A stretch of 64,000 nt of DNA, taken from NCBI GenBank assembly GCA_950295325.1, contig OX485805.1, positions 12,310,501 through 12,374,500 of the forward strand, in the 5' to 3' direction. How positions within the stretch are numbered: the first letter of the stretch is position 1; every line of letters begins with the position of its first letter. The notes beneath the pieces were generated by a model. The model was not told the origin of the DNA. It ran no database searches and was given only the letters and a program-made list of their open reading frames with translations. The position numbers were made by a program, and so were the translations under genes. This DNA comes from Polytrichum commune (Eukaryota; Streptophyta; Polytrichopsida; Polytrichales; Polytrichaceae). Shown here piece after piece: positions 3,001 through 32,100 of this stretch.

Positions 3001-5854
3001 ATACAGCAAGGTGCATAAACAGGTGACATGCTGAAATAGGAATATTCCCAACCAGGATAAATTCTCTGATTGTGTCTGAGCATGTCTCCTTGACCAATTT
3101 CAATATATGGAAATACCAAGATTAAAATATGCAGGATTATGGCTTCACAAGAGGTTGGTTTAAAAATGTACAGGACAGAAGTTTTAAATGGCATAAATTA
3201 CACTACCCTTGCATCATTATTGCAAAAAGAGATGGATGTAATCCCTCAGTCGCATGCTCATAAGTCTACAGAAATATGTACAAGATCGTAAGTAACTCAC
3301 CAACTATTGTAAGCAACTTTGTTGACGGTGAGACTGCAGAGCCTGGGGAAACTTTCTGCACATCAAAGATGTTGCCAACCCTGATGTCATTGCTGACCTG
3401 CAATTTACATCATACATGTTCCTATATAGACTCAAAGAAAAGCATGTGCTCTCCTTATACTGGAGTCAAGGTAATAATACCTACAACTGGATGATTCAGG
3501 TTCAGATCAACAACTAACATGGGCCCTTTGTGAAAACCCTACTTACAAGAGCAATTTACTACCTGCTTAGAGAAACTTTCAATTGTAAGTAGCGGTATTG
3601 TTCCAAGTTGCACTAGCTGTTTTCCACGCCCAACCTGCAATATACACACCCCAATTTTAAAACCGTAAGACCTCTTCAGAATTCCAATCGTACAAGCTCT
3701 GAGACAAACTTGGAAAAAAGGTTAACAATAATCAAAACACTGCAATCCTAAATTAAACCCCCAATACTTTGATCAGGACGATGCAAGAAATGTAGGTGTT
3801 ACCTACCCTAGACGCACAATACATGCCAACATCTCCTAACTAAGCAGAGGGCACTCACACTACATCTGGTTTAACTGTTCCTTCCAAATCTATTAGCCTG
3901 AATTTAGGCTCCATTATTTTAGCATCTTGGAGTGGAACCAATGCATATTGCCCAATCTTTAATAGTAGACATTGCACATTGGACATAACTTGAATCGGGA
4001 GTCTTCCAGGCAGATAAAAACTGCAGAGAGCTAACAGGAGTTTACCAGGAATATAAGCCGGAAATTCGTGACATACAGGGTGCCAGTTACACCCAAGTTT
4101 ACCAGCAACACTCCCTGGCTCTGTTCAACCATTCCAGATAATTGAGAATCCTTACTGAGTACTAACTCCTTACTGATTGCAACTCTCACAAAGGGCGCCA
4201 GACATTCTAAGATCATGTTCCAATCTACAAAGTATCCACAAGAACTCAAGGGAATCATGGAACCTGCAATTAAGTGTGATTGAGTCATCCCGTTTCCAAG
4301 GACAGTGTGAAACATGGCTGTGCAACAGATATATTTGCCTGTATGATGTGCATGCAGAATCCTCACAAAGATCCTGATTTCTTGGCATTCAATAGCACTC
4401 TGTTTGCAAATTCAATCCATCCACATCACCTCATGGAAGAACCACAATTTACAACCACTGAATAAAGTTACTGACCTCTTCAATCACCAACTCCGCCGTG
4501 AGGAGAAAGCTATCCCCACTCTGAGTCATGGACCTTCCCATAGGCTGCAATCCAATCCCCCACCAACACTCAGTTGCCATAAATTCCCAACTTGATTGCA
4601 AAAATCACAGCAACAAGCTCAAGAATCTGAATTGTCAAACCCTAGACACACCGCTTGTGAAACCCTCGACATTGCCCTCCCTACAGGAGGCAATCCAAAC
4701 CCCATTGTCATTCAATGGCCACAAATTGCCAACCTAATTGCCAAACACAAGCTCATCAATTTCACAAAGACCTTCCTCTAAGCTGCAACCCAAAACCCAT
4801 TCGCTCAGTTGCCACAAATGGCCAGACTAATTGGCAAAAATAAGCTTATCAATTTCACATGGCCCTCCCTCTAAGCTCCAACCCAAACCCCATCGTCACC
4901 CAATTGCCACAAATGTCCAAACTAATTGGCAAACACAAGCTCATCAATTTTGCATGGACCTTCCTCCAAGCTGCAATCCAAACCCCATCGTCACTCAATT
5001 GCCACAAATTGCTGACCTAATTGTCCAAAAAATAGCTCATTGATCTTGCATGGACCTCCCTCCAAGCTGCAATCCAAACCCCATCGTCACTCAATTACCA
5101 CAAATTGCCCACCCATTGCCACCACATGCTCGTCAATTTTGCGTGGACCTCCCTCTAAGCTGCAATCCAAACCCCATCGTCACTCAATTGCCACAAATTG
5201 CTGACCTAATTGTCCAAAAAATAGCTCATTAATTTTGCATGGGCCTCCCTCTACGCTGCAATCCAAACCCCCTCCTCACTCAATTGCCACAAATCCCAGA
5301 CCAGAATTACAACACCAACAAAGAACCCCAAAATTTCAAACCACCAGACCACTAAGTGCACCAATTGCACCCCCGCCCCCCCCCCCCAACACACACACAC
5401 AAAAATTATTCACTCAATTGCCCCAAATTCCTGACCAAATTGCAACACCAACAAGAAACCCCAATAAATTCAAACCACCATTCAAACCCCATTCCTCACT
5501 CAATTGCTACAAATCCCTAATCAGATTGCACTACCACAACCACAAGCTCGTGAATCTGAATTGCCAAGCCCCGTCCTCACTCAATTGGCCTGATTGCAAC
5601 AAAAACCTCATCAAACCCTTCCAGAACGACCCTCGTCGAACCCTAAAGCACCAATCCCATTTCCCCATGCGGCAATCCAAACCCCATCCTCATCCTTAAT
5701 TTAATTGCCTTACTTTAACATTTGCAACACAAGAGCCTTGCAGAATACAAATGAACGAGACCCTAAACGCACCAATTGTGAAGAAACCTTCGAGAAGCCC
5801 AGGAGAGATGGGGAGCGTGCCTTCTGCTGATGCTTCGGTTGCTGTTGCTGCTGC

Positions 5855-10576: not shown

Positions 10577-11310
10577 GAGGCAACCTTGGGGACGTGTGGG
10601 TTGGGGAGAACGACGTTGACAGCGAGGGGGGTTTGGGTATTGAGGCAGAGGAGATTGAGAATCACTTGGGGAATTGGGGAGAAGCAGAACAGTGGGCGAG
10701 GCTCACGAGGTGGAGATTGAGGCAACCTTGGGAGAACGACATTGCCAGTGAGTGGATATTGGGGATTGAGGCAAGGGAGATTGAGAGAAGCATTTTGGGA
10801 ATTCGGGAAGGAATAGGAAAGTGGGTTAGGGTTAGGATGTGGAGATTGACGGGAAGAGGAAGAGATTGAGGCAACCTTGGGAGTACGACAGTGACAGCGA
10901 GTGGATATTGGGTATTGAGGCAAGGAAGATTTAGAGAAGCATTTTGGGAATTCGGGGAGAAGCAGATAAGTGGGTGAGGGTTAGGAGGTGGAGATTGAGG
11001 CAACCTTGGGAGAACGATATTGACAGCGAGTGGATATTGGTGGTTGAGGTACGGGAGATTGAGAGGGGCATTTCGGGATTTTTGGGAGAAGTAGAAAAAG
11101 TGGGCTAGGGTTAGGAGGTGGAGATTGAGGGGAAGAGGAGATTGAGGCAACCTTGGGAGAACGACATTGGCAGCGAGGGGAGATTGGGCATTGAGACAAG
11201 GGAGATCGAGAAAAGCAATTTGGGAATTTGGGGAGAAGCAGAAAAGTGGGTGACGGTTAGGAGGTGGAGATTGAGGGAAAGAGGAGGAGATTGAGGCAAC
11301 CCTAGGATCG
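10577..11310. repeat. Tandem array, about 130-150 bp unit, directly upstream of the THF1-A start codon
   Basis: The block GAGGCAACCTTGGGAGAACG recurs at about 10577, 10719, 10868, 10997, 11144 and, diverged, 11293. Each is followed by a GTGGATATTGGG-like block and a TTTTGGGAATTCGGG-like block. The last unit runs to within about 20 bp of the ATG at 11330, so the array occupies the promoter or 5' leader of THF1-A. The strand is purine-rich. Long open frames across it on the minus strand are a by-product of the repeat. Confidence 0.85.
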
Positions 11311-11329: not shown

Positions 11330-13147
11330 ATGGCGATGCCGATGGCGGCCGTAGCCGCTGCGATGCCGTCGTGCTGCGTGAAGAGTGCTGTGGCAGGGGT
11401 AGCGGCAGGGCAATGGGTGGAGCGCAGCGGTGGGCGTGGTGCGAGGGGTGGACTCCGCAGCAGCATGTGGCAGATGGGAGGATGTTACTGGCCTTCGGAG
11501 CAGCTGCGGTGCGCATGGAGATCTCCGCCCGGTAGGCTTGCGGTAGTGAGCTGCACCACTTCTTCCACCACCACCTCCACCACCACTACCGGTACGTGTC
11601 GAATTTCAATTGAATTTTAATCCGCAACAGCCACTAAATTCTGGAATTTTTCATGTGAGATTGATTGAATTGCAAGGGTTTCCAAACATGTGAGAGAAGA
11701 GATACGTGTGATGAGTGCTTCGGGTGGAGCTGGAAGTAATTATCCTGGTGATTGAAGTTGAGGCTTGAATCCAGAGCTACTTGGACGTGAACTTAACAGT
11801 AAGTGCAAGTCGGCGATGACTGCACTGGAATTGTGGCCAAATAGCCAGTGAATTTTGAAGCTCCATGTGAGACTGAATTGCAAGGGTTTCCAAACATGTG
11901 AGGGTAGAGATATCCGTGATGAATGCTTCGGAGCTGTTATCAAGCTGGTGATTGAAGTTGGGGTATGAATCCAGAGCTACTTGGATGTGATCTTAACAGT
12001 GAGTGCAAGTCGGTGATGATTGCATTGGAATTGTGGCAAAATAGCCACTGAATTTTGGAACTCCATGTGAGATTTGATTGCAAGGGATTCCGAACATGTG
12101 AGAGAAGAGATGTGTGTGATGAGTGCTTTGGTGGAGCTGGAAGTAATGAACCTGGGCGGAGGGAAAGATTGCACTGGTGGGAATTAGTTTTCTGGGCATT
12201 TGAATTTGTTAACGCAGAGTGGGTTTCTTTCTTTCTGAGGGGGAGCCCATTTTGAATTTGGAGGGGTGGGATTTGGGGTTAGGGCAGATGTAGATGTACC
12301 CACAGTGGCCGCTACCAAGGAAGCCTTTCTGAAGGCGTTGCTGAAGCCAATCCCCAGCAGTTACGAGACTGCAATCCAGGAGCTTCTCGTGCAGCAGCAC
12401 TCGATGCGATACAATGCCACTTACACCTACGATCCCATCTTCGCCTTGGGTGTTGTGACGGTCTTCAATCGGCTGATGGAGGGGTACCCGAGTGACATGG
12501 AAAGTCAATCCATTTTTGAAGCCTACATTAGTGCACTGAACGAGGATCCTGAATTATACAGGTACCCTTCTTTTCCTCTTCTTCCTTTTATTTTACTGGA
12601 GGGTGGCATTTCTTCTTCTGCACACCAGAAAGCTATGGAGTGCATCTCAACACAAAACAAGAATGACAATAATGGATAGGGGAAATCAGTATCTGTGTTG
12701 GAGATGAGGGGGGCTATTTGGCATTGCAGTTTAAGTTCTTCCATTCTTTCACTAGAGATGGCACCTCTTATTGATTACTCATCTGCATGTCGGAAATTAT
12801 GGAGTGCATCAGAGCAAGACAAGAGGGACAGAGGACAGATAAGGACATTCAGTTTCAATGTTGGAGATATGGGGGCTAGGTATTTGGCATTGCAGTTAAT
12901 TTTTTTTGTTTATGTCTGAAATGGATGCAGAATGGATGCAGAACGGCTGGAGGAATGGGCTGCCTCTGTAAGTGGGAGTGAAATTGCAGAATTTGCACGT
13001 AGGGAAGCTGGAGTAGAAGGCATTCTTAAGATCATTGGTTCTCGTGCAGCCGGCACAGGCAAAATTAATTACAGCCGGTTTTTCGCCATTGGTTTGTTCC
13101 AGCTTCTTGAACGCGCCAATGCTACCGACTCTGCTGTTTTGGAGCAG
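11330..13147 (+). CDS. THF1: THF1/Psb29 (THYLAKOID FORMATION 1) copy A, truncated: exons 1-3 only
   Basis: THF1/Psb29 is a thylakoid/stroma protein needed for photosystem II assembly and turnover and for FtsH stability. Exons 11330-11591, 12288-12561 and 12931-13147 give 251 codons. Residues 1-88 form a Ser/Thr/Ala-rich, Arg-containing transit peptide similar to that of copy B. Exon 2 holds the conserved VQQHSMRYNATYTYDPIF block and MEGYPSDMESQSIF, ending EDPELYR. Exon 3 holds ERLEEWAASVSGSEIAEF and NYSRFFAIGLFQLLERANAT. Exon 3 ends on Gln in phase 0, exactly as in copy B, but the two C-terminal exons of copy B are absent before the NAD kinase exon at 13324. Copy A is therefore either a truncated relic or the 5' part of a THF1-NAD kinase chimera. 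There are no frameshifts or stops in the three exons, which argues against an old pseudogene. Exon 2 has two possible acceptors 6 nt apart (12288 or 12294). Confidence 0.85.
11620..12150. repeat. Tandem repeat, about 200-216 bp unit, in THF1-A intron 1
   Basis: The block GCAAGGGTTTCCAAACATGT recurs at about 11670, 11880 and (diverged) 12081. Each is followed by an AGAAGAGATACGTGTGATG-like block and by a CCAGAGCTACTTGGA block in the first two units. This gives about 2.5 units and fills most of the intron. Confidence 0.8.
12625..12900. repeat. Imperfect direct duplication, about 160 bp unit, in THF1-A intron 2
   Basis: ATGGAGTGCATC (12637 and about 12800) and TTTGGCATTGCAGTT (12718 and about 12880) occur twice in the same order, with TTGGAGATG/TTGGAGATATGGGGGCTA between them. 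The second copy ends just before the exon 3 acceptor. Confidence 0.7.
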
Positions 13148-13323
13148 GTATTTTTGCGATTGTCGATCATTACTGTTGGTGTCCATTGATGAACAAAATT
13201 TTAGTGTTTCATAGTGTTGCAAGGTGGATGGAGAAGTTTTTCTTACTATATGGTTGGTTGGTAGAAGAGCAGTGTAGAACAGTAAAGTTGGCTTCTCTGA
13301 GATTCTGGAGCGGTTTTTGTTAG

Positions 13324-16300
13324 GTTGAAGGATACCAAGAAAACTCATCATGGAGCTCATTTCAGCAGGAGCAAGAAAGCTTGATGGAATCGAGGATGGA
13401 GGAGAGCCAATCACCGAAGGTGGATCCTGAGTGCAGAAGTGTTTCCACCACTGGGAGGAATGAAGACAACCTTGTGGAAGTCTCAGATGCTTTAGAGAGT
13501 ATGTCTTGTTCAGACTTTCTTCAATCTTGAATGCTTCTGTCAGGCTGTCCTTGTTGGTAAGCTCTTCTGCATCTTGAAGTCCCAAGTCAAATAAACAACT
13601 TCTGGCTGTACTCTCTGTCGAGAGTGTAGTCCTTATAATATGCCTAGGTGTTGTGAATTTCAATGACATGTTTTCATAATGTCACAAACAGCGGTTGCCA
13701 AGGCCCTTCGAGATGTGGCAAGGAAGAAAGCTCTTGCTGAAGAGGCGGCTGCAGTATGGAAGCGTAAATATGAAATGGAGCGTGGGAGGAACGATCGACT
13801 TGAGCGCCTGACTGCAGGCCATGCAGCTCTTGGTTTGTGAGGCTTGCCTTCACTTTTGCCTTGTTTTGGCATGTTTCTTCGTATGCTATTAGAGTTATCC
13901 CTTTATTCAATGAGACTTCTAATTGAGAGTTTGTCCCCTATGATTTTCTATTGGTTGTTTTGTATACAAAATCAATAATTTCTTACTACTTGTGGTGCAT
14001 GCTCGATGGTAATGTTTGAATATGAATGAAGACCAACCTATTTTGGTCCATTGAGGGCCAAACTCATTTTAGCACCTCTTGGCATGCCAAAACAAGTTTG
14101 ATCCTCATTGGACGATATTGGATCTTCTTTGTTCAAACCTCCACACTGCCTCCAAGCATGAGCTGAAAACTTACTGAAAATGGGAGTTCTTGTATGCCAA
14201 AACAACCAACTTCCAACCAGAAGTCATGTTAACTTTAGAGGATAACTCCGTTGTGTTTTATTTTTAATTTCAGTTTGTCAAGAATCAATTATGAAGGGAT
14301 TATGTGGAAATATGTTCTCAAAAACATGTATATTGATGCTCATAGCAACTTCTCTTGAATTCATACACGTTGCAGACTCTATGAGGCCAGAGGAACCCTC
14401 ACCCTCACACAATCCAGAGACAGATGCTGATGAGTTGAGAGCATCTGGAGTGCTCACAGGAAAGTTTCCAATTCCAAGAAACAGTCCTTGGCCAAAGGTA
14501 GAGGGAATGATCGATCAGCAAACGCCCCCTCATAGTGCTGTCTCCTTCAGCGAATTGGACTTGGATTCAGTTGAAAGCCTCTTGCCAGCTGACAAGGTAG
14601 ATGTAGCCTCTTATTTCTGTGATGAGCATGTAGCTTCCTACAATTACACTTTCAAACAAAAATAGTGCAGCTTTGCTACTGTGAAGGGTACAGCTTTCCT
14701 GTTGTTCAGTTTGAACCTTTGTCAAAGAAGTGGTTGCCTTTCTGTGTCTGTTGGCATTTCGTATTGGTATAGTAGTTATGCTGAATTCTGAGCACTTAAG
14801 AAGGACAGTATTAACAGGGATCTTGTGCAAATCCACATTGTTTTTTGAAGGACACTTATGTGCATATAGACAGTTAGATCAAAACTCAACATGTGAAATC
14901 AAGTGTGAATTAAATAGCTGTGCAATCATTGATTGAGTTTTCATTCTATTGGGGTGCAATGTTGACTAGTTGAAGTTAGAAAGGTGCTCACGTTTTAGGA
15001 GGTAGTCGTGAATGTGTCTTCTGGACTTACCTAATATTATCAATCTGCATATGCAGGCTTCATTTAAACTCACTTGGGGGACAACCAGCAAGAAGAGCAA
15101 GACCGATGTTGTATCATTCAAATCTGGTGACATAACGATGGCTATTGGGACTAACAAACAGGTACTCTTTACATCTACTAGTACTGAACTTTGAGAAGAT
15201 GGTTGATGATGTTAGGGTATGAATGCTCAGCACTTTCTGATATATTCTACTGATTCACATACATCTTGCTTGATTTGAATGATGTTGGTGTAGTTTGGTC
15301 ATATGTCCAGATTGCTACCTTGCTTTGGTACCCCTACTCTTGACAAGTTGGCTCCCTCTTCTGGTGTATGAATCTTCATTACAAAGTCACTGCTAATTCC
15401 ATGAGGATGTTTCGGTTGCAGATTACGTTGGTGTGGGACTCTCCACCTCGATCTATGGTCATTCTCAAGAAGCCTAACTCATCTACTGTTCACGAGTTAT
15501 CTAAACGAATGATTCGGTGGGTGGTACTCTGGCATCTATGTAGCTCTTGTGATGTAGTGGCATTTGTTGACATTATAATATGTGGGATTAATGTCCCTTC
15601 TGTACTCCCCACCTAATTGAATGCTATGTGTGTAGAATGATGAAAGAAAGATTCATATTTAAAATTTTGTCTTTGTCCTAGGGTGAATGTTCCCTGTTCA
15701 TTATTGTAGTTCTATAGTATATTTAAGGCTCTGCACAACTTCTCTCCTGAAGTAAATTGTTGATTTTTGGGGATGCAGGTGGCTCAATGAGGAGACTAAC
15801 TCAGTTGTATACGTGGAACCAAAGGTCAAGGGAGAATTAGTTCAGGAAGACCCTTACTTTGAGTTTCTTCAGAAATGTGAGACAGGTGAACAGTGGTTTC
15901 AAGCTGATGATTTCTACTCATCTGTTCCACACATGTATGTAGAAAATGGCTGAGATGATTGGTGTAATGTAATAATGTCTCCCAAGAGCGTCAGTGCTGC
16001 AATTTCTAATCGCTGATAAGAACTGTTGAGGATTAGTGATGGTTACAAAATAGTGAGAGACATAATACAGGGCTAATCAGTTCTGAGAAGTCTGTACCAA
16101 ATAATGGGTACTTCAAGTTTGTGGAATTTTTTATGAAATGTGACAGAGGAGGAAGTGATGAATCTGCACAAGAAAGTGGACTTGGTCATTACACTTGGTG
16201 GTGATGGAACTGTGCTTTGGGTAAGATCTTAGAACTCATGTTTCTTCAACTACAAGGAATTCATCTCTGTTGGTCAATAATCTTTGTTTCTAATTAGTAG

Positions 16301-18064
16301 GTAAATATAGGCAAGACTTATGGTAACATAGATGGCTAGAACGAATTTTTTAGCTAAATTATAAACTGGTAAACCCTCCTGTATGTATCTCTGTCCATAG
16401 TTATGTCTTACCTTGCTTCAATATTCAGTATTTGATGGTGAATGCAAATTGCATGGTCTTGATTGTGCAGGCAGCATCAATGTTCAAGGGCCCAATGCCT
16501 CCACTGGTGTCCTTCTCCATGGGCTCTCTTGGTTTTATGACTCAATTTGGTATCCACTTTCAAAGTTTATGATTTAGGGAGGGTATAAATTTCTGGTTCT
16601 GTTCAGGGTGATGAAACATGTGTCGTATGTGCGTAGTCAATTTTTTTGGGTGTTTGGTGGGAGACTTTCTCTGTTTACCTCTTCCTTCAAAGAGCATAGG
16701 GGTTGTGACCAACATATTTTTAGGTCAAATTTTAAATGTGGAAAGAAAATTGATTTTTATAGTATTTGTTGTACAGTTGAAACAAAGGTCTAAAAGGTGG
16801 AAGTGTTGCAGTTGCGGATGCCCCAGATGGTATTGTACGCTAACCAGGTCTTTTAATGTCTCAGTGTGACGATGTAATGTCCTTGACTGAGAATCTCAGA
16901 GAGTGATCTTTACAAAGAAAGTCTAATGAAGGTAATAAGAGGCCCTGTATACATCACGCTACGACATCGACTTCATTGCCAGATTGTCCGCAACGCGGAG
17001 AACCTTAAGGATGGCAACTACAGCTCAGAACCAGAAGAACACCTTGTGCTGAATGAGGTTTCTATTGATAGGGGCATGGCATCTGCCCTGTCTAATTTGC
17101 AGTGTTACTGCGATGGGCACTTTGTCACTACTGTACAAGGAGATGGATTGATACTTTCCACTCCGTCCGGAAGTACTGCCTACTCTTTGGCAGCTGGAGG
17201 CTCAATGCTTCACCCTCAGGTGCACTTCTCAATTCCACACCTGTCTGTCTTACCACAAATTGTGTACATACTCTTACTTATGTACATCAACAGTGAAACA
17301 CTTAAATTTGGTACTTGAGTCATTAGACTTTGAGTTGCAAGTTGAGAATGTGAGGTGATTGCTTGAATTAACCAAAGTAAATGACTAGTGACCTCTAATA
17401 TGACTGAAGAGGGTGTTTAAAGAGAAGACGTTTGAATATTGTGGTTAGAATTATCATGCGGAGAGTTTTGGGGAATAATATCACTTTGTTGTGGGCTGTG
17501 CAGGTTCCAGGAATTCTGTTTACACCTATTTGTCCACATTCGCTTTCCTTCCGGCCGGTTATTCTGCCCGAGTATGTGACAATAAGGATACAGGTCAGTG
17601 TACTTTACCATCATTGAAGACACAAATACCAGGCAACCTTTTACTTACAATTCTGTTAGTTTTGATCAACACTCTCTGCCTTAAGGGATAACTCCAATGA
17701 CGTGTCCACTAAGGATAGCTTGATGTGACTTGACGATGCTTGGCATTCATGCATGTAAACAAGGACCTTAATTCTTGAAGCTAGAAACAAACGAAATTGT
17801 CCTTAAAAATGCTTATGAATGATTGATGTTATTTATCTGCAGTTGCCTTTAAAGAGCAGGGGTCAAGCATGGGCGAGTTTTGATGGCAAGGCCAGGCAGC
17901 GGCTAAGTGGAGGTGATGCCCTAATTGTACGCATGTCTGCGTGGCCTGTTCCAACAGTGTGTGATGAGGAATCAAGTGGTGATTTCCTACGCAGTGTGAG
18001 GGAGGGCTTGCATTGGAACCTTAGGGTGTGCCAGTTATCTGATGGTCCTCAACAAATCAGTTGA
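13324..18064 (+). CDS. NADK1: NAD kinase, NADK1-like (possibly the 3' part of a THF1-NADK chimera)
   Basis: Phosphorylates NAD to NADP using ATP. Exons: 13324-13498, 13692-13832, 14274-14596, 15057-15161, 15422-15516, 15779-15885, 16147-16220, 16471-16549, 16900-17219, 17504-17593 and 17843-18064. All phases agree (577 codons including stop). The N-terminal 210 residues are plant-specific: a helical [19 protein letters not shown] block, then a Ser/Pro/Asp-rich stretch. The catalytic domain follows: [14 protein letters not shown] (GGDG motif), [22 protein letters not shown] and [20 protein letters not shown], which builds the NAD site. It ends in a short beta-rich tail ([15 protein letters not shown]) and a conserved C-terminal helix. 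The first exon opens at a TAG-G acceptor directly after an in-frame stop. A stand-alone protein would start at Met 13384 (556 aa). Alternatively the exon continues from THF1-A exon 3 in phase 0 across a 176 bp intron. A palindromic MITE sits in intron 2 and another dispersed repeat in the last intron. Confidence 0.92.
13889..14249. mobile_element. Palindromic MITE, copy 1 (NAD kinase intron 2)
   Basis: Starts TTAGAGTTATCC and ends GGATAACTC, with the family's central fold-back (a CTCATTTTAGCACCTCTTGG arm against its inverse around GGCATGCC). It shares the TGGTTGTTTTGTATACAAAA and CCACACTGCCTCCAAGCATG blocks with the other copies. It is somewhat diverged and ends about 25 bp before the exon 3 acceptor. 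Confidence 0.8.
17694..17815. repeat. Dispersed repeat B, partial copy (NAD kinase last intron)
   Basis: Contains a GTGTCCAC..A block, a short decayed spacer, then TGACTTGACGATGCTTGGCATTCATGCATGTAA and AAGGACCTTAATTCTTGAAGCTAG. The same order is seen at 33990-34105 and 54975-55075. It is truncated at the 5' side relative to the other two copies. Confidence 0.7.
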
Positions 18065-19745
18065 AAATCAGTGAACAAGATGCCTAACCCTGTGTATTTT
18101 GTGTACTACTAGTATGTCAATACTTCTTTGAGGTTTTTTATATACAACAATTCGAGTGTTGCTCAACAATCTGTACATACCAGAATGCTAGACACACAAA
18201 AAGTCTACATTCTACCATTCATTTTCAAAATAAATCTGAAAACGATCTCATTCTTTTCACGATTGAGTAATGGGGGTTTTGTATGCAAGTCCAGGATATG
18301 TCCAAGAATTTTGCATTGACAGATGTGTTTATTATCCCTGATTCATGAGTTTCTCTCCTTATCACTGTTCAGATTCCAGAAGCAATCCTTTATTTATGGT
18401 AGTTCTTATAATGTTGTCAGTCGACCTGTGTAGACTTCACTAATTCAGCACAAAGTCAGTGCAAATGAACATTAAGTGTACAGTATTCAAACGAACTCTT
18501 TTTGATGCAAATGTGCCTCTGTACATCTGCAGCTTTTAGAGACAACAACGCTGCAAAGTTCAAGCATAGATTTGTAAACTGTAAACTAGTTCTTACTACC
18601 TAATATTCAAAATAAACACATGTTTATAATACCTTGCATCGCACTCAAAATATTCAGTTTATGATTATTCTACAAATCTTCAATTTCAGCTCTTCATTTA
18701 TGCAGTTCTAAGTGAATTCCAAAGTCTAGAAAAGATGAGAGCATGGTTGACCAATGGATATTATTAGGCATGCACCCAATTCGCCTTTCCACATCCAAAA
18801 GGTGACTAGAAGTGGTGGACCATTGAAAATTCTGATGAGCAAAGTAAAACACTTGCTTGTACAGCATGTAACGAATCAATGTGACAAGTGCCACGAATCA
18901 CCTTCTGTTGCATACATGCACACTCCAACGCAAAAGAGACTCAACCATTGCCCCAATCAAATGAAGCACAAATCCTCTCTGCTCACGCATGCTGGAGCTT
19001 TACCTCACGCCAGTCAGTGCCAGTAAAAAACAAAAACATCAATATAAATTTATAAAATTCACAATATACTCCAAAACATTGATTCACAATATTGTTACCC
19101 TCATCTCAACATGACTTTTGGTTGGGAGTTGGTTGTTTTGCATACAACAATTTCCATGTTTAGTAAGATTTTAAAACATGCTTGGAGATTGTACGGAAAA
19201 TATATTATTGGTTCATTGGGGGTCAAACTCACTTTGGCATGCCAAGAGCTGCTAAAATAGGTCTGGCTCTCAATAAACCTCATGAAATAGATTGTCCTTT
19301 GTTCAAAATTTAAACACTATCTCCAAGTATGCACCATCATAAGTGCAAAGAAATTAATGATATTGTATGCAAAATTATCATAGGGGAACAACTCCCTGCA
19401 ACAAGCCCCATGAGTTCCCATTGAGTTAAAGAATAACTATAGAATGCACTAAATACTGCAAAATATTGATTCATAATGATAATAATAGGTGCAAAAAAAC
19501 TCCCAATCCCTGACGCCGAAGTGGACCCATGCTCCGGAACTCGCCACCTCACCAGCTAAAGTGGAGGGAGGCCTTTCCTTGGCCGCTTGGATAAGGCTCC
19601 GGCTCAACCCTTCCTTCTCTTCCCCTTCCCCTTGAAGGATAGTCATCGATTGAGAACCCATCATAGCATACTCCTGGGTTGTTTCTTGTTCAGAAATCAT
19701 CTTGTTCGCAGAAGGGTGAGGGTGAGGGTGAGGGAATTGGAGGCA
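18065..19745. other. Intergenic region between NAD kinase and THF1 copy B
   Basis: No gene supported. It should contain the NAD kinase 3' UTR (about 18065-18400, AT-rich), a MITE copy at about 19094-19440, and the THF1-B promoter/leader (GC rises after about 19500; a GGTGAG run at 19716-19735 lies just before the ATG). Confidence 0.6.
19094..19440. mobile_element. Palindromic MITE, copy 2 (upstream of THF1-B)
   Basis: Has the CAACATGACTTTTGGTTGGG arm near the left end, the TTGGCATGCCAAGAGCTGCT centre, and TTGAGTTAAAGAATAACTAT at the right end. Terminal repeats are worn but recognisable. It lies about 300 bp upstream of the THF1-B ATG. Confidence 0.8.
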
Positions 19746-22700
19746 ATGGCGGCGTTGGCCACATCGATGTCGTCGTCCTGCGTGAAGAGCGCCATTGTTG
19801 CAACCGCAGCACAATGGGTGGAGCGGAGTGCCACTAACAATGGGAGTATTGGCGTCAAAGGGCTAAGGAGTGGGATGTGGGAGATGAGTTGTTGTCATTC
19901 GGAGCAGTTGCGCGCCACTTTCAGGGCGAATGGCGCCATGACCACCACCAATAGGCGCGCTGTCGTTGTGAGCTGCTCGGCCACGGCTACTGGTACGTGT
20001 GCCTTTGAATTTGGTCATTTCCGGAGAAATTGTGGGGGCGATGATTGCTTGGTTCCGAAGTTTTGAGCTCCAACATTGTGAATGTTGTGGGTTGAGAGCG
20101 GATTGGGGTTGAGTTTCTGGTCGGCAATGTGCATGGTGCCGGGTTCATGGTAATCCGGTGGAATGTTGAGTTTTTGGTGGGTCGATGGCTTAGTTCCGCA
20201 ATTTGGAGTATTAGTGAGACGATTGCTTAGTTCCGAAATTTTGAGCTCCGACATTGTGTATGTTGTGAGTCAAGAGTGGGGCGGGATTTAGTTTATGGTT
20301 GGCAATGTGTATGGTGCTGGAGTCGCGGGTAATTCGGTGGAATGTGGAGTGTCTGGTGAGTTGATGGCTTAGTTCCGAAATTCTGAGCTTCGACATTGAG
20401 CTTCGTAGAAATAGCGAGTGGATGATCTTACTGCCGAACTTGGGTCTTCGGAGAATCAGTGGATCGATGATGGCTTAGTTCTGAAATTTTGAGCTCCGAC
20501 ATTGTGTATGTTGTGGGTTGAGAGTGGAATGGGGTTTAGTTTCTGGTCGGCAATGTGTATGGTGCTGGGGTCACGGAATTCGGTGGAATGTTGAGTTTCT
20601 GGTGGGTCTAAAAAACAGTGGGCCGATTGCTTAGTTCCGAAATTTTGAGCTACGAGATCGTGTCTGTTGTGGATTGAGAGTGGAACAGGGTTTGGTTTCT
20701 GGCCCTCAATGTGTACATTGCTTGGTCATGGTAATTTGGTGGAATTGATGCAAAAGTCTTCGCGGTGTCAGTGAAGGATTTTAGTCCCTTTGGGGAAAGC
20801 TTAATCAGGAGATGGGATCAGAATGATATATAGCATACCTTTGTGATTACTAATGGCTTTTTTGCACATAAAATCAACAACCTTTTTTCACTTGTGGTTT
20901 ATGCTTGAGGTAGTGATGAATTTGATTGAGTAGCAACCTATTGTGGTTCATTGAGGGAAAAAACTCGTTTTAGCACCTCCTGGCAAGCCAAAGTGAGTTC
21001 GACCCTTCAATGAACCGATATAGATTGTTCTTTGTGCAAAACCTCTACACTACCTCCGAGCATGCATCGAAAACTTACAGAACCTGGAAGGCTTTGTGTG
21101 ACAAACAACTCCCAATCAAAAGCCCATCGAGTTAAAAGGATAATTATATTGTGAGAGAGCTCAATTTTCTAAATGAGGGAGGGGATTGGGGTCAGGGCAG
21201 ATGTACCCACAGTGGCCGATACAAAATCTGCCTTCATTAAGGCATACAGGAAGCCTATCCCCAGCATTTACAGCAATGTGATCCAGGAGATTTTGGTGCA
21301 ACAACACTTGATGCGCTACAACACAACCTACACTTACGACCCCATTTTTGCTCTCGGGTTTGTGACGGTGTTCGATCAACTCATGGATGGGTACCCAAGC
21401 GAGACGGACCGCGACGCAATTTTCAAAGCATACATCACTGCACTGAACGAGGATCCTGAATTATATAGGTTACACATTCTTATATTTTCTTTCCACTTTT
21501 TTCTTCTTCTTCTATCTGTATGTAATGGCGAAGAAGGTGTGTGAACGATGTTCTAGGGTTTGTGTCTGGGAGTTGGTGAATGGGTGCCCATGGATTTCTC
21601 ATTGCAAAAGTCGGAATTGTGAAAGGCAGTATCATTTACTGAATCATTCTTATTCAAGTCATAGTTTGTGATTTGTAACTTTAAGGGCACTATCGATGCG
21701 GTTTATAAGTCTTATCCTCAAGCAGAACTGAAGGTCCGTTTACACACAACCACCATTCTCATGGGTGATGGTTGTAGGACACTCAACTACTATGCGGCAC
21801 TGGGAGAGAACTTCAAGACCAAAGCACGGGAGACCAACTTTATACTATCATCCATAAATTGTTTGTTTCCATTAGAAGGATAACACCAATAGGAGGGACA
21901 GTCATTGAGGTCAAATCCACTTTTCAGCTACAGGAGTACATGTGTGTAACGAAATAAATAGTAGTTGTTGAAAGTGAGGCTCAAAATTTTGTTCTTTTCA
22001 TTGAGTGCGACATTCTGAAATAGGTTTATTGGGGAAATGCAGAAAGGACGCACAAAAGCTAGAAGAGTGGGCTGCCTCCGTGAGTGGGAGTGGAATTGCA
22101 GATTTTGCAAGCAAAGATGGTGAGGTAGAAAATATTTTAAAGGAAATCGCCGCCCGTGCAGCTGGCACAGGCACATTCCACTACAGCCGGTTCTTTGCCA
22201 TCGGTTTGTTCCGGCTTCTTGAACGTGCCAATGCTAGCGACCCTGCCATTTTGGAGCAGGTCTGTGTCTCCTGACTCGCCTCGAAATTTCTAGTCTAGTT
22301 TTGATATTCTATTGGCATGGTCATTTTTTTAAAGTATCTAGTGGTAAGGATATTATAGCTTTGTACATATTTTCTCCAATTATGACAAGGATAGCGGCCA
22401 TTTCAATCCGAAACTAGATGTGGTGCAATTTCAGTATTCTGGGGAATAGATAGGCTACAGAGACTTCAACAGGTATACACTTTCTTTTGCCTGGAAATGG
22501 AAGGTTATGAGCGAACTGTCTTGTGGAAAGGAATCTATCAAACTGGTAGAATAATTGTTTTCTAGTGGCATGTTCATTTGTGGATGTGTTTTTTGGTAAG
22601 GATTTTATTGCGTAGCACATATTTTCATTAAAAATTAGGATTGTAGTAATCTTAAGATAATTTGCAATCTCGGTATTTCTGGGCGATAGATAGGCCAGAG

Positions 22701-23625
22701 AACTTTAAACAGGGAGGCACAATTTTCTGACTGGAAGGAGAAAGATTTTGCATGAACTGCCTTAGGTACTGGAGTTCCTGTCATTGTGATCACTAACTGT
22801 TCAAATTATGTTTTTATCAATATCCCTTTCTTCATGGAGAAATTCTCATGGGAATTGAGAACCTGAAAGGTGGTATTAATTGTTGCAATGTTGTCACTCA
22901 AGTCATAGTTTGTGGTTTATCACTTTGAGGGCATTACAGATGAGGCACTATTACCCTTACCCTTGTGCAGGTACTCACTACATACTTTGTAGTACCAGTA
23001 GAGTTAGTTACTCACGAATTCAAATGAAGTTCTGATTTTGTGGTTGGGTGGGAGGTAACAGCTTTCAAAGGCATTGAATGTCAGTAAGAGGAGTGTGGAC
23101 CGGGACTTAGATGTGTACAGGAACCTGCTGTCCAAGCTTGCACAAGGGAAGGAGCTTATCAAGGAGTATGTTGACAGGTGGGTTCTCAGAAGTTGCAATT
23201 ATACTTCATGTTTCAGTCTTTTTGTGTCATTGCTGCATTTTTGATCTACAAGTCTTGTTGTTCCTGGTTCATTTTTAATGCAGACAACTGTGAGGATGCA
23301 ACAGAACACATTCTTGGATTAGTTTTTAGAGCACCCAATTTCCCTTATTTGATATTGTTTGGAGATGAAGACTTTGAGTGGCTTTCTATAAGACTAACCT
23401 GATGCTCATGGTTAGTTTCACATTGATTTGCATAATCTGCATTAAGATGCATAGGGTCATATCACAAATGCCTCCTTAATGAGCATTGTGTAATTTTAGT
23501 TTCTCTGATTTTGTCTGAATATGCAACTCAGGGAGAGGAAAAAGGCAGCTGAGAAGGAAGCAGCAGCTGCTAATGCAAAGTCAGCCGAAGCTGTTGCAAA
23601 GACAGAAGGAGCGAAGTCAGAGTAG
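19746..23625 (+). CDS. THF1: THF1/Psb29 (THYLAKOID FORMATION 1) copy B, complete
   Basis: Plastid protein of thylakoid biogenesis and PSII maintenance. Exons 19746-19992, 21201-21468, 22043-22259, 23071-23177 and 23532-23625 give 310 aa, the usual THF1 length. Residues 1-82 form a transit peptide (rich in Ala, Ser and Thr, with Arg). The mature protein has VQQHLMRYNTTYTYDPIF, MDGYPSETDRDAIFKAY, QKLEEWAASVSGSGI, the HYSRFFAIGLFRLLERAN block, then DRDLDVYRNLLSKLAQGKEL and a charged Ala/Lys/Glu-rich coiled-coil tail ending EGAKSE. Intron 1 carries a tandem array and a worn MITE. This copy keeps the two exons missing from copy A and is the probable functional THF1. Confidence 0.95.
20042..20740. 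repeat. Minisatellite, about 105-180 bp unit, in THF1-B intron 1
   Basis: GCTTAGTTCCGAAATTTTGA-like blocks begin at about 20046, 20224, 20366, 20471 and 20629. Most are followed by CTCCGACATTGTGTATGTTG, TTTCTGGTCGGCAATGTG and ATTCGGTGGAATGTTGAG. This gives five units of uneven length. The first unit begins within about 50 bp of the exon 1 donor. Its sequence is unrelated to the array in THF1-A intron 1. Confidence 0.85.
20800..21152. mobile_element. Palindromic MITE, copy 3 (THF1-B intron 1, degraded)
   Basis: Recognised by the centre block (CATTGAGGG, CTCGTTTTAGCACCTCCTGG), the CACTACCTCCGAGCATGCAT block, and the right end CGAGTTAAAAGGATAATTAT. The left terminus has decayed. It ends about 50 bp before the exon 2 acceptor. 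Confidence 0.7.
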
Positions 23626-26105: not shown

Positions 26106-29100
26106 TTACAAGCCTTTGCTCCTCAAGAAAGCTTCTTGTGTTGGTTCTCGTCCTAGAAAATCCACTAGAATAGCTGAAGCATCTTTGGTGGCTCCAGGAG
26201 CAAGAACCTGAAAAGACAATTACATCCAAACATGTTTCAGAAAGTGCAAAATCACTTTGAAGCTATGATGCTACATTATACATATTAACCATTGTGGGCG
26301 GCAAAATTCATCATCGACCCACAATACTGAATGTTATGCTAGTTATTGTGGGCCACATTATTTTCCTAGTAACACATTTTCTCATTATTATTTTATTGTG
26401 GGCCCCATGATTTATCATGGAAGTAGATTAATGCAGGTCAGTACTATCAATATATATTTTTATTTATTTATTTATTTATATATTTATTGCTACAACAAGA
26501 GGCTTCAGTAATTTGTAAGAAGACAACACATCCATTTTTAAGAGTTTGAATGTGACTGTGACCCACGATAAATATGTGGCACATTATTTTTAGTGCCACA
26601 CTAAAAGAAATATTTAATGTAGTTTCCTTGGTTCTCTTCTCAGTAGTAAATCATTAGTCTGGTACAGCAGCCCCTTCCAATACTTGTTGGATGCAGGTAC
26701 AATTAATTGTCTTACAAAGACCACGTGGAAGTAGAAACAGTTAACTTAGGAATTGTGCAGAAATTGACCTTATCTGACTACTAACCTTTTCTCGATACTC
26801 TCGACCTGCTGACTTGCTGAGTACATTGCCCTTGAATTTGGTCTCAAACATGTCAGCTGAAAATACCTGTATGTTTACCATTTCAAAAGAAAGGAATTTC
26901 AATACTTTCAGGAAGGTGCACAAAAATATGAACTCTCAAGCTTGGGATGGCCAAAGCCTGAAATAAGCTACTTGAATTCTCCCGATCCATTGATGTAGAA
27001 CGTTTACTACATCATGCTAAATGCAAAATAAAATGTACTTAAACAGCATTTGTGATTGAGTCTGCACAAAAGAAGGAAGCTTAAAGACTCTGTATGAGGA
27101 ACCAGTTGAAATGATTTTGGATCCTGAAGTTCTCCAAAAATTTTTTGGACTGAAAGAGGAGATCCAAGGAGTTTCAACCATGATGTAAGATTAGGCTCTG
27201 AACAAGACGCTCTAACAAGCTCCTAATATAAAAGTTCCTCTAAGAGGCACCAAACCCCTTGTTCAGTTTTGATATCAAGTGACAGCTTTGTTTCTTACCT
27301 CACTCCATAGATAACCATAGTATGCGGCATCATAACCACCTGCCATGTGGCCAAATGAGGCACTAAAATTGGTGCCCTCTAACATGGGAATTCCCTCCAT
27401 TACCTGCTGGCCAGGTGTCCCCCCAGCAGAACATCCTGGTTAATTGTGCTTCAGGAGTTGTGCATTACACTTGAAGTCTTCGAAGCAAAACAAACACAAA
27501 AGTATTCATGGTGATCAACTGCAATCAAGTCATTTCATTCTTTATGTGATCAAAGCAATATTGACAAAGCAAACACATGCCCATGAGTCTGTAAAAAAAC
27601 TAGAATACAAATCGAAAGTGAGCAACAACATGCATGCAAAATAGATGAAGGTGTGACCTTAGGAGTCAAGTCCTGAAGAATAGCAGCTGTGTCTGCTTTG
27701 TCTCGCATGTGTATCATCTGATCAAAGAGACCTGTATATTGAAAAGATTTACCATGTCAGATTAGAAATAGAAAACATAAATTTTGACCAATAAGGCTGA
27801 CATATCATGCAATTGAAAACACCTATTTGCACAACTTTTGTTGTTGTTAAAGACATCATTGCAGAAAGGGAACCACCCAAAATTGAGTTTAAAAGATTGT
27901 GATCAGGCAAGAAATGAAAACTTATAGTGTATTTACCAAAGAGGAGTTGCCGCTTTGTAAGAAGGCCAGCAAATGCTCGTCTTTTCTGCATAAGGGCTTC
28001 ACATATATCTTCTGGTAAGGGTGTCTCTGTATCCTGCAGTTGCTACAAACTAGTAAGCACCTCATAAAATGCTATGGACATATTAGAGTTGTTCTCTAAC
28101 ACAACATGACTTTTGGTCGAAATTCCCCACATCCTCTTCCAGACTTGACAGTAAACTGCAGACAATAAACCATTTCCTACCTACATGAAAGTAGAGGCTA
28201 CTGCAAGAGAAAAAATACTTGCCTTGTAGAATCCACTCATCATCTTCAAAGAAGAGCTTTCCAAACACCTGCACATCCAAAGCCACTCACTAAACCAGGC
28301 ATCCTAATCTCATTTATCATTCTATTAAATGACAACAATCACTATGCAGGACAAAAAGAGGCCACCAACATAATTATAACTACTATAATTGTCAAGCCGA
28401 TAAACAAAAACTAAAAGAATGACATAATAATATACCAATTCTCAAGCATCTGACTGGGAGCTTCCACAAAGTCATCTTCAACACGCAACCCGGAAAACTT
28501 TGCAAATGAAGCACGGCTACAAATATGGTGCATCTGCAACGTCAGTCCACATAAACAACATTTGTGAATGAACTTCAGTACTTCCATTGTATGTCTTCAT
28601 TGCTCTTTTGCAACTTGTCTTATAGTTTTCCACCAAACATTATCAATATGCATAAATATGAGACCTTTACGATCAACTACAGTCATACTGCCATCATACA
28701 CAGGCGAGTTGCACACAAGATGACCAAACTCTTGAATCTCCAAGATGGTTGGGTCACACATTTACAACAAAAGTGATGTGATCAATACATTACACAAGAC
28801 AAAGTATGCCTGATGCTAGAAGTTCTTACCACATGTCCAAACTCGTGGAAAAATGTCTCAACCTCAGAGTGCCCCAGCAGTGAAGGTTTCTCCTTTGTTG
28901 GCTTTGTGAAGTTTGCCAGCATAGCTGCAACTGGTAGCTGAACCAAATAGATGAAACTTTACTTGAAGTCTACACAACACTAACTAGTTCCCATTTATCT
29001 GCTTCAATGTTGAACAATTACCATTCAGAATAATAGAGTTATGCTCTAATTCAACATCACTTTTAGTCGGGAGTTGGTTGTTTTGTATACAACACCTTCC

Positions 29101-32100
29101 ATGTTTAGTAGATTTTCAGTGCGTAGTTAGAGGAAGTCTGGAGGTTCGAACATAGAACATTCTATATCGGTTCATCGAGGGTCAACTCATTTTGGCATGC
29201 CAAGAGACACCAAAATGAGTTTGGCCCTCAATGAACCAAAATAGGTTGGTCTTCATTCAAATTCAAATACTACCTCTGAGCATGCACCACAAGTGGAAAG
29301 AAGCTACTGATTTTGTATGCAGAAAATCAATGGAAACTCATAATGTGCCAGCTCCTGACAAAAGTCCCATTGAGTTGAAGGATAACTCTAATATTCGACC
29401 AAATCTAGGATTTACAAAAAAGCAGATGATCACAATGTGGATCATGATCAAAAAGCTGCAGGACTGGTGGTACCTGACGAGTGCCATCCTTCTGAACACA
29501 TCCAGGTTGCAGTGAGCATACACATGCATGTGTGTATTTTCCATCCCTGTTCCATATCTCAATGAGTGAAATTGGACACAGTTTTGCAGTAACTCACATC
29601 CTTCAAATGTTGGGTTTCTGACTCTTTAATCATAAGTCTTTTACATGTGTGATGAGATACAAGTGCAGTTCAGAGGCACTTTCAAATTTGAGGAAGCCTC
29701 TTTTTTTCTTCTTGAACCACTGAGCGGCTGACAAGATTCCTACTGCTGTAAAGATACTGTAATCTATAGAGTCATCTATAAAGTCTTGGGATGGAACTCA
29801 AAGTTAGGTGGTTAATGGTGAGTTTAAGAGCTTAATCATAAAGTCACCCAATATTTCTTAAAGGTCAGATTAACATTCTTAGAGAGTGGGACCGGGCTAT
29901 TATAAAAAACCGGCTTTCTAGCTTGTCATACTAGGATCTGTAGGACAAGCTAGCCTTCCATAGGCCGAGAAGGAATTTAGGGTGAAGGTTCCCAAAAGTC
30001 AAAGCCTATTTTATATCATGAAGTTCTCTCAGAAAAAAATTGCATTTAGAAAGGAGGTCCAAGAGTTTCACCAACTTTCAAAATGAAGCTCCAACACAAG
30101 AAGCTCTAATGAGCACTTAAAAGAAAAGTACCTCAAAGATGGACCAAATTCCTTTCTTGGTCCCTCTTTGAGAGACTTTGCATATATCTTCACTGCCACA
30201 AAGATACCCTATGGCTATCTCTGTGGTATCCACAATTTTGTATATTAGAGAAATGTCTTTTGAAAGCGTTTAGGAGATGTCTAACAAGCAACAGCTCGAC
30301 CAGCAAGATGTGGATATCCCTGGTATGTAGTTCATAAACATATATGAGAAACCTACCGTGGATACAGGTCAAGATAAAAGTAACCCATACGCTCTCCAGT
30401 TTCTGTATCTGACACAGCATATAGACAGACTTCAGGGTGCCACACTTGAGGTTTCAGCACTTCCTTGAACTTCAATCCTGCAAGGATGTGAAAGATGTAC
30501 AAGTTGTCATTCTCAAACATTTCTAAAAGTAAATAAATAGATTTGCTAAATAGTATTAACATTGATGTTATTATTATTTATTTGCTATTAGAATTTTATT
30601 AAAATACTAATTATGATAAAAAAAAACTCATTTCAACACACGGTTACGCAAAGGAATCAACACTCTCACTCAACCAAATATAGTTCCATGATTGTCAGTG
30701 TCAGACCTAGCAAATCTTGGTAAATTTGGAGGAGACCAGTAGTGACAACATTTATAGGAAAGTACTGCTTTACTGTCTCATAGTCCACTTTAAACTCCAG
30801 CTCTTCAGCTTTTCGAATGTAGTAACGCAAATCTTCCAAACCAAATGTATCATCACCTTCCTCAGCTCTCTGCATGCACAAAAGCAATTCCAAAGACATT
30901 TCTCTAATTAGAGGAAATGCAATATCAACAGTCCATGTGGAATGGATGTGTGATGGAGAAGAGGAAAAATCATCATTCCATATACGGATTCCCATCAGTT
31001 ACTTACACAACTAAAATAAAAACTTATCTAGAAATTAACCTTCATAGCTTGAAGATTTACAAGCTCCTTCTTTGCAAGGGCAGAGATTTTATTGGAGATG
31101 CTTTCCAGGAAGGATTTAACCTGAAAAAAGCATGTATACAGGATTAGTATCACTATAAAAATAATCATTATTCAGTAATTTTCCTAAAGCCAGAAAATGT
31201 ACATCAATACCACAAAATGAAGGCCACAATACCTTTACTGGAGACTTCGCCATGCGAACGGATATTGCATACTCTGCATGGTTCTTGTAACCTAGCAATT
31301 GTGCCATCGCATTTCTCATCGCCACCTACGCAGACCCAGAAAAAAAGATGTAGATTCAGTATTAAATTCACAAAGATAAATTATCCAAGCTCAGAGAAAT
31401 TGTCAGTTTCTGGTGGTCAAAGACACACCACTTTCTCCAGAATAGTCACATTCTCATCCATGCATCGCTGGTCATAGGCTATTGCCACAGCTTTCCTTGT
31501 AGCTCCCACCTGTTCAAAAAATGACATTAGATTAGCTATGAGGAATGAATAGTTCAAGGTTCCAGTGGATGATGATATTGGAGCATAAGAATCATCCTCA
31601 AACTCAACCTGACTTATGGTCGGGAGTTAGCTGTTTTGCATGCCACACCATCCATGTTTGGTAGGTTTTCAGTGCATGCTTGGAGGTAGTGTGGAGGTTT
31701 GAACAAAGAAAATCTTACATTGGTTCACTGAGGGTCAAACTCAATTTGGCATGCCAAGAAGTGCTAAAATGAGTTTGGCCCTCGATGTACTGAAATTGTT
31801 TGCTATTCCATCACATCCAAACACCTACCTCTGAGCATGAACTCAACTGGAAAGAAATTATTGATATTGTATGCAAATGAACCGATGGAAAATCATAAGG
31901 GACCAACTCCTGACGAATAGTTTGATTGCGTTAAAGGGTATTTCTGATATGATTGTTGTACCAACTCTGATTTGCTTATGTGTTTCCTACTCAGTAAATA
32001 ACATTCAGAGGATTGTGTCATGACAAGTCATACAAGAGCACACGAAGAATTGCCTCCAATCAGACACTACAGAGGACGATTCAGAATCATAATCAAGGTA

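Follow-up and report, generated by a model that had tools for sequence, protein, structure and literature searches.

The window analysed here, a stretch of 64,000 nucleotides from Polytrichum commune, carries on its plus strand a 5'-partial copy of THF1 (THF1-A), followed by an intact NAD kinase gene and then by a full second copy, THF1-B (Table 1). As THF1-A lies directly upstream of the intact kinase, the two could be spliced into one chloroplast-targeted protein. An Rfam scan of the window gave no match reaching the gathering score, and a contig scan of genomes with THF1-B as query returned no relative.

Table 1. Gene features of the THF1 and NAD kinase region, in window coordinates
Feature	Position	Strand	Description
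THF1-A exon 1	11330..11591	+	ORF and splice sites; phase 1 at end
THF1-A exon 2	12288..12561	+	N-terminal part of ThylakoidFormat domain; Pfam PF11264; 76% DNA identity to THF1-B exon 2
THF1-A exon 3	12931..13147	+	domain match stops at profile position 154/216; phase 0; donor CAG|gtattt
Gap	13148..13323	+	either the proposed linking intron or a separate kinase gene's 5' region
Kinase first homologous exon	13324..13498	+	homology to N-terminal exons of moss and C4-paralogue kinases
Kinase exons 2-11	13692..18064	+	complete NAD kinase, subfamily I type
Kinase exons 2-6	13692-13832, 14376-14596, 15057-15161, 15422-15516, 15779-15885	+	
Kinase exons 7-11	16147-16220, 16471-16549, 16900-17219, 17504-17593, 17843-18064	+	
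THF1-B, complete, 5 exons, 313 aa	19746..23625	+	Pfam PF11264 1-215 of 216
THF1-B exons	19746-19992, 21201-21468, 22043-22259, 23062-23177, 23532-23625	+	

All three exons of THF1-A are open, with neither a stop codon nor a frameshift, and exons 4-5 are missing, both as the initial annotation had stated. Exon 1 aligns in part with THF1-B exon 1 and encodes an N-terminus rich in Ala, Ser and Arg, with two acidic and six basic residues among the first 60, which is presumed to be a plastid transit peptide. The ThylakoidFormat match reaches 165 bits (Pfam cut-off 27) and covers profile positions 1-154 of 216, which implies that the C-terminal helix region is absent from THF1-A. The extended C-terminal helix that marks a full-length THF1/Psb29 is thus not encoded. 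No remnant of THF1-A exon 4 or 5 turned up within the window, and when the 408-Mb assembly was scanned with the PF11264 profile all five matches were exons of THF1-A or THF1-B, with no orphan exon 4 elsewhere; because the scan missed exons 1 and 5 of both copies, a stray exon 5 would escape it. THF1-A lacks its own 3' end, and unspliced read-through beyond 13147 adds 13 codons before a stop.

The two THF1 copies diverged at a dS of about 0.9 and give a dN/dS of 0.245 over exons 1-3 (0.20 for exons 2-3), a pairwise value that shows constraint averaged over both copies and cannot date it relative to the truncation. Of 53 alignment columns that never vary among 11 cyanobacterial THF1s and that both copies cover, THF1-A keeps 31 and THF1-B 33. 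Relative-rate tests between the copies were non-significant with each of 11 outgroups, which are related to one another and provide 14-18 informative changes per test. On these measures exons 1-3 of THF1-A look about as conserved as those of THF1-B. THF1-A resembles THF1/Psb29 proteins (PF11264) in that its exons encode most of the helical bundle and retain five of the six residues given as universal in the excerpted text of PMC5566888 (F14, V35, L39, G55, R133 and G138), all of which are present in THF1-B. It differs from them in lacking the C-terminal helix region and in the replacement of L39 by Ser; D9 and I25 are also altered.

The kinase module contains the Pfam domains NAD_kinase and NAD_kinase_C as well as GGDG, NE and Gly-rich motifs (the motifs read by eye), and the PDB NAD kinase chain 9cr4_A aligns with it across residues 193-513. 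The earlier description of the kinase as complete is upheld, and its sequence points to a complete subfamily-I enzyme. In a tree of 21 proteins, built without the same genome's paralogues C1 and C4, it clusters with four moss kinases (support 99/97), and its placement among mosses is based on this grouping. The kinase part alone has 10 introns, a number that section 7 of PMC4072752 describes as common to most subfamily I genes. Nine of these have modelled counterparts at matching positions in C4, the sole comparison and one made without published gene models; the tenth corresponds to a final C4 exon that was located but whose border was not modelled. The core of the kinase, compared with that of C4, gives a dN of 0.166 and a dS of 2.2 and is therefore strongly constrained. 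The kinase exon 6/7 junction, 15885/16147, matches that of C4, so that a joined product would measure 793 aa if spliced at 13324 and 779 aa if spliced at 13366, a correction of the roughly 827 aa first proposed. A joined model of 810 aa was discarded on the basis of the same C4 border. An uncorrected kinase model, with 17 extra residues inside the kinase and away from the junction, underlies the Pfam, protein-search and composition analyses as well as the moss N-terminus comparison, the search for a second kinase copy and the tree.

The donor of THF1-A exon 3 is strong, ranking in the top 1.2% of GTs in the window, and the initial annotation was right about both its quality and its phase. At 13324, 176 bp past exon 3, an acceptor-like TTAG|G begins an exon that is in frame with the kinase; of the acceptor as first described, the site and the frame stand and the strength does not. 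It reads TAG where 31 of 33 known acceptors here read CAG, it outscores two of these 33 and is matched by 31% of the AGs in the window, and the resulting intron, at 176 nt, would fall below the 193-1696 nt spanned by the 25 introns modelled. An alternative in-phase acceptor, TTTCAG|CAG at 13366, would give an intron of usual length (218 nt) with the usual CAG, and is itself only modest, scoring above 3/33. At least one frame-compatible AG precedes the ATG at 13384 in 63% of 2000 Markov-resampled gaps, so frame compatibility is weak evidence for a fusion and was abandoned as a strong argument for one; the real gap holds four such AGs, a number reached in 9% of the resamples.

From the end of exon 3 to the ATG at 13384 there are 236 bp, and the initial view that no room is left for a separate kinase promoter is not borne out. 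String scans of 13148-13383 found none of the poly(A) hexamers AATAAA, ATTAAA, AATAAT and AATGAA and none of the TATA strings TATAAA, TATATA and TATAA; a single CTATAT occurs at 13246, and the base composition of the gap falls inside the range of the modelled introns. In-frame kinase ATGs lie at 13384 and 13396, the former preceded by an in-frame stop at 13321-13323. An out-of-frame ATG at 13350, which we take to have the better context by the Kozak rule, opens a reading frame that reaches 13430 and overlaps both kinase starts. A start within the gap followed by a micro-exon is possible on paper; the introns of 63-165 nt that it entails would be below all 25 modelled.

In both other subfamily-I kinases of the genome, C1 and C4, the homologous first exon is preceded by an acceptor-like site, CTTACAG|ATG in C1 and GTACAG|AT in C4, the latter with a candidate upstream exon. 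The C4 site has phase 1 instead of 0, with an in-frame ATG about 19 bases upstream, so the C4 exon may need no upstream partner. A short upstream ORF ahead of the C4 candidate start (read by eye) suggests that upstream ATGs may be tolerated. The candidate first exon of C4 has no upstream counterpart in the window, and the comparison of 13148-13520 with C4 gave no clear homology. The orthologues P0001 (Ceratodon), P0003 and P0009 have about 50 additional N-terminal residues, which are unmatched upstream in the window and in the genome; the short and different N-terminus of the Physcomitrium orthologue P0006 indicates that not all of the moss clade shares this extension. Genome scans with PF20143 and PF01513, which proceed exon by exon and can miss genes, gave the three subfamily-I genes plus one further locus, which we take to be NADK3-like.

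The anatomy is best explained, in our tentative view and at slightly less than an even chance, by a spliced chimeric gene comprising THF1-A exons 1-3 and the NAD kinase. A duplication capturing only exons 1-3 would have placed a 5'-partial THF1 before the kinase, possibly at the junction left by a tandem duplication that extended from kinase intron 1 into THF1 intron 3. This route is unproven because it predicts a former upstream kinase copy; neither the window nor the 20 kb preceding it yielded a second copy. Transcription would begin at THF1-A, with exon 3 joined to the kinase's first homologous exon through the acceptor at 13366 or 13324. A protein of 779-793 aa would result, imported into the plastid and consisting of the transit peptide, the THF1 helical bundle minus its C-terminal helices and a full NAD kinase, which would produce stromal NADP close to thylakoid partners. 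Of the original proposal, it is borne out that the two genes are juxtaposed, that THF1-A is truncated, that the phases are as stated and that the kinase is intact; the acceptor named for it is weak, and its frame compatibility is expected by chance in most resamples. The constraint seen in the truncated THF1 and the acceptor-like sites in both genomic paralogues lend some support, and the ATG at 13350 was also counted in favour, since a kinase-only mRNA starting before 13350 would carry it. So were the strong donor and missing exons 4-5 of THF1-A, the constraint on the kinase, the longer N-termini of P0001, P0003 and P0009 and the gap's lack of the poly(A) and TATA strings searched. Counted on the other side were the weak acceptors, the shortest intron via 13324, the cheap frame compatibility, the changes at L39, D9 and I25 and the CTATAT in the gap, together with the phase, in-frame ATG and upstream ORF of C4, the short N-terminus of P0006, the undated pairwise constraint and the absence of a THF1-domain protein of 445-1417 aa from the search described below. 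It is also conceivable, if rather unlikely, that the truncated bundle has long been kept as both transit peptide and tether on the thylakoid or FtsH side for a formerly cytosolic-type NAD kinase, providing the lineage with a second plastid source of NADP beside photosystem I or the site of photosystem repair. Both truncation and fusion would then be as old as the THF1 duplication, and L39S and other Ser changes would reflect adaptation to the loss of the helices.

A fusion of this kind would be new. In agreement with the initial annotation, which knew of none, the literature search returned no THF1-NADK fusion. With the THF1 part as query, no THF1-domain protein of 445-1417 aa was present at E≤0.001 among 1694 candidates, in a protein search from which close relatives seem to be missing (the best NADK match over at least 90% of the query is 59% identical); the search with the whole fusion gave at least one match among 8000 candidates scored. 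The kinase part shares with plant subfamily I (AtNADK1 type), described as cytosolic in PMC4072752, the complete catalytic domain, the three motifs and the ten introns. It would differ, if the fusion is real, in a 5' end made of THF1 exons with a presumed transit peptide. It would share compartment and reaction with the chloroplast enzyme AtNADK2, which belongs to a different subfamily (II); the N-terminal additions that the excerpt of PMC4072752 reports for subfamily II are phosphatase or adenylate-kinase domains, unlike THF1. Chimeras arising from partial or tandem duplication have been described in Drosophila yakuba (PMC5460883), in Oryza fusions (PMC9199173) and in the partial gene HvARM1 of barley (PMC6092874). 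The likeness is that part of a duplicated gene survives, or becomes attached to a neighbouring gene, in a new gene structure; the difference is that the abstracts of these three papers mention no pairing of THF1 with NAD kinase and that the present chimera is predicted from sequence. If spliced, it would pair a photosystem-repair helper with the enzyme that sets the NADP pool, redirect a cytosolic-clade NAD kinase to the plastid through exon capture and provide a natural experiment on whether it is important to make NADP at the thylakoid.

Nearly as likely as the spliced fusion is an arrangement of two units, in which THF1-A survives as a relic, whether truncated, decaying or unspliced, and the kinase is a normal cytosolic subfamily-I enzyme that starts at 13384 or 13396 and is transcribed from a separate short promoter within the gap or close to it. 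The kinase alone already has exactly the intron number that most subfamily I genes share (PMC4072752, in its section 7), and the in-frame stop before 13384 fits a start at that ATG. The N-terminus from 13384 is acidic like that of C1 and unlike a transit peptide, C4 has an in-frame ATG just before its own acceptor-like site, and the missing universal residue in THF1-A points the same way, as do the cheap frame compatibility and weak acceptors of the fusion. Against this, a THF1-A terminator and a kinase promoter must fit into 236 bp, the ORF opened at 13350 covers both kinase starts, and THF1-A shows no stop, frameshift or significant rate excess. An unspliced THF1-A would be a useful example of a truncated gene copy with an intact reading frame.

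The four in-phase AGs upstream of 13384, and the presence of the ATGs 13384 and 13396 in the same exon, would also suit a mixed output, in which the THF1-A promoter and a second start near the gap yield both a plastid fusion and a cytosolic kinase through alternative starts or splicing; this is improbable, as it needs every requirement of the fusion plus an extra promoter. Splicing of THF1-A exons 1-3 past the kinase to exons 4-5 of THF1-B, which would make THF1-A an alternative THF1 5' half, would explain the constraint on these exons without a fusion, and both the matching phases (the acceptor at 23062 is also phase 0) and the kept THF1-A donor allow it. It would need an intron of about 9.9 kb across a whole gene, where the longest of the 25 modelled is 1.7 kb, and is very improbable. 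An assembly error that deleted both exons 4-5 of THF1-A and the 5' end of the kinase is scarcely credible, given that the PF11264 scan met no orphan exon 4 elsewhere in the assembly and that the three contigs encountered are 59-78 Mb long.

Upstream of a complete NAD kinase gene (Pfam NAD_kinase and NAD_kinase_C) lies THF1-A, a THF1 copy that ends after exon 3 in an open frame, in phase 0 and with GT-AG borders. That it is spliced in frame into the first kinase exon, as the initial annotation proposed, is sound in its anatomy, but the splicing was overstated, as the acceptor at 13324 is weak and a matching frame is common in resampled sequence. We tentatively put such a fusion close to, though short of, an even chance.

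The ThylakoidFormat domain of THF1-A covers only positions 1-154 of the 216 in the Pfam profile. According to PMC5566888, THF1/Psb29 is an FtsH complex-binding protein made of a helical bundle and an extended C-terminal helix, and exon 3 of THF1-A stops before the region of this helix. No exons 4-5 were found for THF1-A: tblastn of the window gave only those of THF1-B, the complete downstream copy (five exons, 313 aa), at a meaningful E-value, and all five places matching PF11264 in the assembly (407.8 Mb, 64 contigs) are exons of THF1-A or THF1-B. As the profile detected exon 4 of THF1-B (exons 1 and 5 being too weak to register), a spare exon 4 elsewhere in the assembly should have appeared. 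The exons of the two copies align while their introns give no match, which indicates that the copies are old. Tandemly repeated G-rich DNA, with periods of 149 and 276, stops about 50 bp 5' of the THF1-A start codon, whereas the THF1-B leader looks ordinary at this place; the promoter of THF1-A may be unusual. Intron 1 of both copies holds internal repeats that do not match each other.

Between the copies, dN/dS is 0.245 for exons 1-3 and 0.20 for exons 2-3 (pN/pS bootstrap 0.22-0.42), an average in which the periods before and after truncation are not separable. Among 65 columns invariant in 11 cyanobacterial THF1s, 53 are aligned to both copies; THF1-A keeps 31 of these and THF1-B 33. In a relative-rate test, THF1-A is the faster copy, though not significantly, with each of the 11 outgroups (8-12 A-only vs 4-7 B-only changes, chi-square <=2.57); the power is low owing to small counts and related outgroups. 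It has also lost D9, I25 and L39, the last being one of six residues universal in THF1 according to PMC5566888. Judged from sequence, the frame kept despite the missing 3' end would count for a chimera, and these losses against it.

The donor at 13147 is in the top 1.2% of GTs and outscores 16 of 25 known donors but, being inherited from THF1, says little about the kinase. Acceptor 13324 has TAG where 31 of 33 known acceptors have CAG; it beats two of the 33, with 31% of the window's AGs scoring equally well, and the alternative at 13366 beats three. A smaller 16-intron matrix, which predates correction of the kinase exon 6/7 border, gave 3.9 for 13366 and -1.5 for 13324; the order of the two sites thus varies with the introns used for training. 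The linking intron would measure 176 nt (13324) or 218 nt (13366), the 25 modelled introns spanning 193-1696 nt. At least one AG with a frame open into the kinase ATG at 13384 occurred in 63% of 2000 Markov resamples of the gap between THF1-A and the kinase, and 9% reached the four frame-compatible AGs of the real gap; open frame and phase are thus weak evidence for the join. With the exon 6/7 border settled at 15885/16147 by comparison with the paralogue on contig C4, the joined product, earlier put at about 827 aa, becomes 793 aa via 13324 or 779 aa via 13366.

In a tree of 21 proteins, the window kinase stands beside four kinases including those of Ceratodon and Physcomitrium (support 99/97), in a wider group with a Sphagnum protein (97/94). 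PDB chain 9cr4_A aligns with residues 193-513 of the kinase part starting at 13384. The genome holds two further subfamily-I kinases (PF20143 scan), on C4 and contig C1, as well as a fourth locus detected with PF01513, presumably NADK3-like; inspection by eye of the motifs in common makes the C4 gene the closer one to the window kinase, and neither scan of the assembly gave an obvious chloroplast-type NADK2. Comparison with the C4 paralogue over the 279 codons of the catalytic part gave dN 0.166 at a saturated dS of 2.2, implying strong constraint.

A separate kinase, not joined to THF1-A, is only slightly less probable than the fusion. By itself the kinase has 10 introns, the number common to most subfamily I genes according to PMC4072752 (which also mentions that three Physcomitrella genes have gained an intron, place not given), so it could be complete, starting within the first homologous exon. 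Three orthologues of one clade (P0001 from Ceratodon, P0003 and P0009) carry about 50 extra N-terminal residues, for which no upstream match turned up in the window or in the genome, the following exon alone being matched in the latter; the window kinase may be without an upstream exon. If its first exon has a true acceptor, a partner is needed, and THF1-A exon 3 is the strongest nearby donor. The first coding exon of the C1 paralogue comes directly after CTTACAG/ATG. In C4 the homologous exon follows GTACAG/AT, and a candidate upstream exon ends CAG/gtatgt in matching phase; this acceptor-like site, being in phase 1, differs from 13324, with which it is not aligned, and an in-frame ATG about 19 bases 5' of it suggests that the exon may carry its own start. 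Both points count against a chimera, as does the short and different N-terminus of Physcomitrium P0006, the fourth clade member. The C4 ATG, P0006 and the exons to which PF11264 is blind soften the missing-exon argument, leaving our weighing the same within rounding. A separate kinase is opposed by an out-of-frame ATG at 13350, which any kinase mRNA starting 5' of it would meet; the ORF it opens extends to 13430 and so overlaps the kinase ATGs at 13384 and 13396. By the Kozak rule, as we apply it, 13350 stands in a good context and 13384 in a poor one. The C4 paralogue has a short upstream ORF before its candidate upstream exon (by eye), so upstream ATGs may be tolerated. Also in favour of a chimera, the gap has none of four poly(A) hexamers or three TATA strings, though CTATAT occurs at 13246.

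The order THF1-A(1-3), kinase, complete THF1-B would be expected at the junction of a tandem duplication that reached from intron 1 of the kinase to intron 3 of THF1. This predicts a full kinase copy upstream; none lies in the window or in the 20 kb before it, so by this route the copy must have been lost. Simple partial duplication or deletion fits as well. The relatives of the window kinase are cytosolic according to PMC4072752. Fused to the THF1 bundle, the kinase would gain a presumed transit peptide and might also make contact with the thylakoid; plastid import and kinase activity of the joined product would be expected.

The statement that no THF1-NADK fusion had been described was borne out among the papers that the literature searches listed and in a protein search with the THF1 part (lengths 445-1417 aa; 0 of 1694 candidates at E<=0.001). 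No ThylakoidFormat domain occurred among the best 120 of 5808 kinase matches, themselves drawn from a capped set of 8000 scored candidates, where top identity over >=90% of the query was 59%; close relatives thus seem missing from the proteins searched, and absence of a fusion is weak evidence.

Coordinates of features in the window and of the C4 paralogue
Feature	Position	Strand	Remark
THF1-A exons 1-3	11330-11591, 12288-12561, 12931-13147		
NAD kinase	13324-18064		
C4 paralogue (L022, L023, L026)	C4 ~37.179-37.191 Mb		9/10 introns modelled at same places as window kinase
G-rich tandem repeat	10604-11276		
Intron 1 internal repeats	11666-12128 (THF1-A), 20039-20745 (THF1-B)		
Dispersed repeat copies	13887-14248, 19105-19374, 20847-21122, 29035-29394, 31584-31950, 33054-33463		
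Local tandem repeats	4669-5302, 43612-44344, 53706-54487		self-comparison
ORF	39967-40341	-	by eye
Multi-exon ORFs	53379-55755	+	by eye

Self-comparison of the window also gave a dispersed repeat family (~270-400 bp, both orientations, 66-81% identity) that looks like a small transposon family and has members in intron 2 of the kinase and intron 1 of THF1-B. By eye, we take the minus-strand ORF to resemble a C2H2 zinc-finger protein and the plus-strand ORFs a multi-exon GPI mannosyltransferase-like gene.
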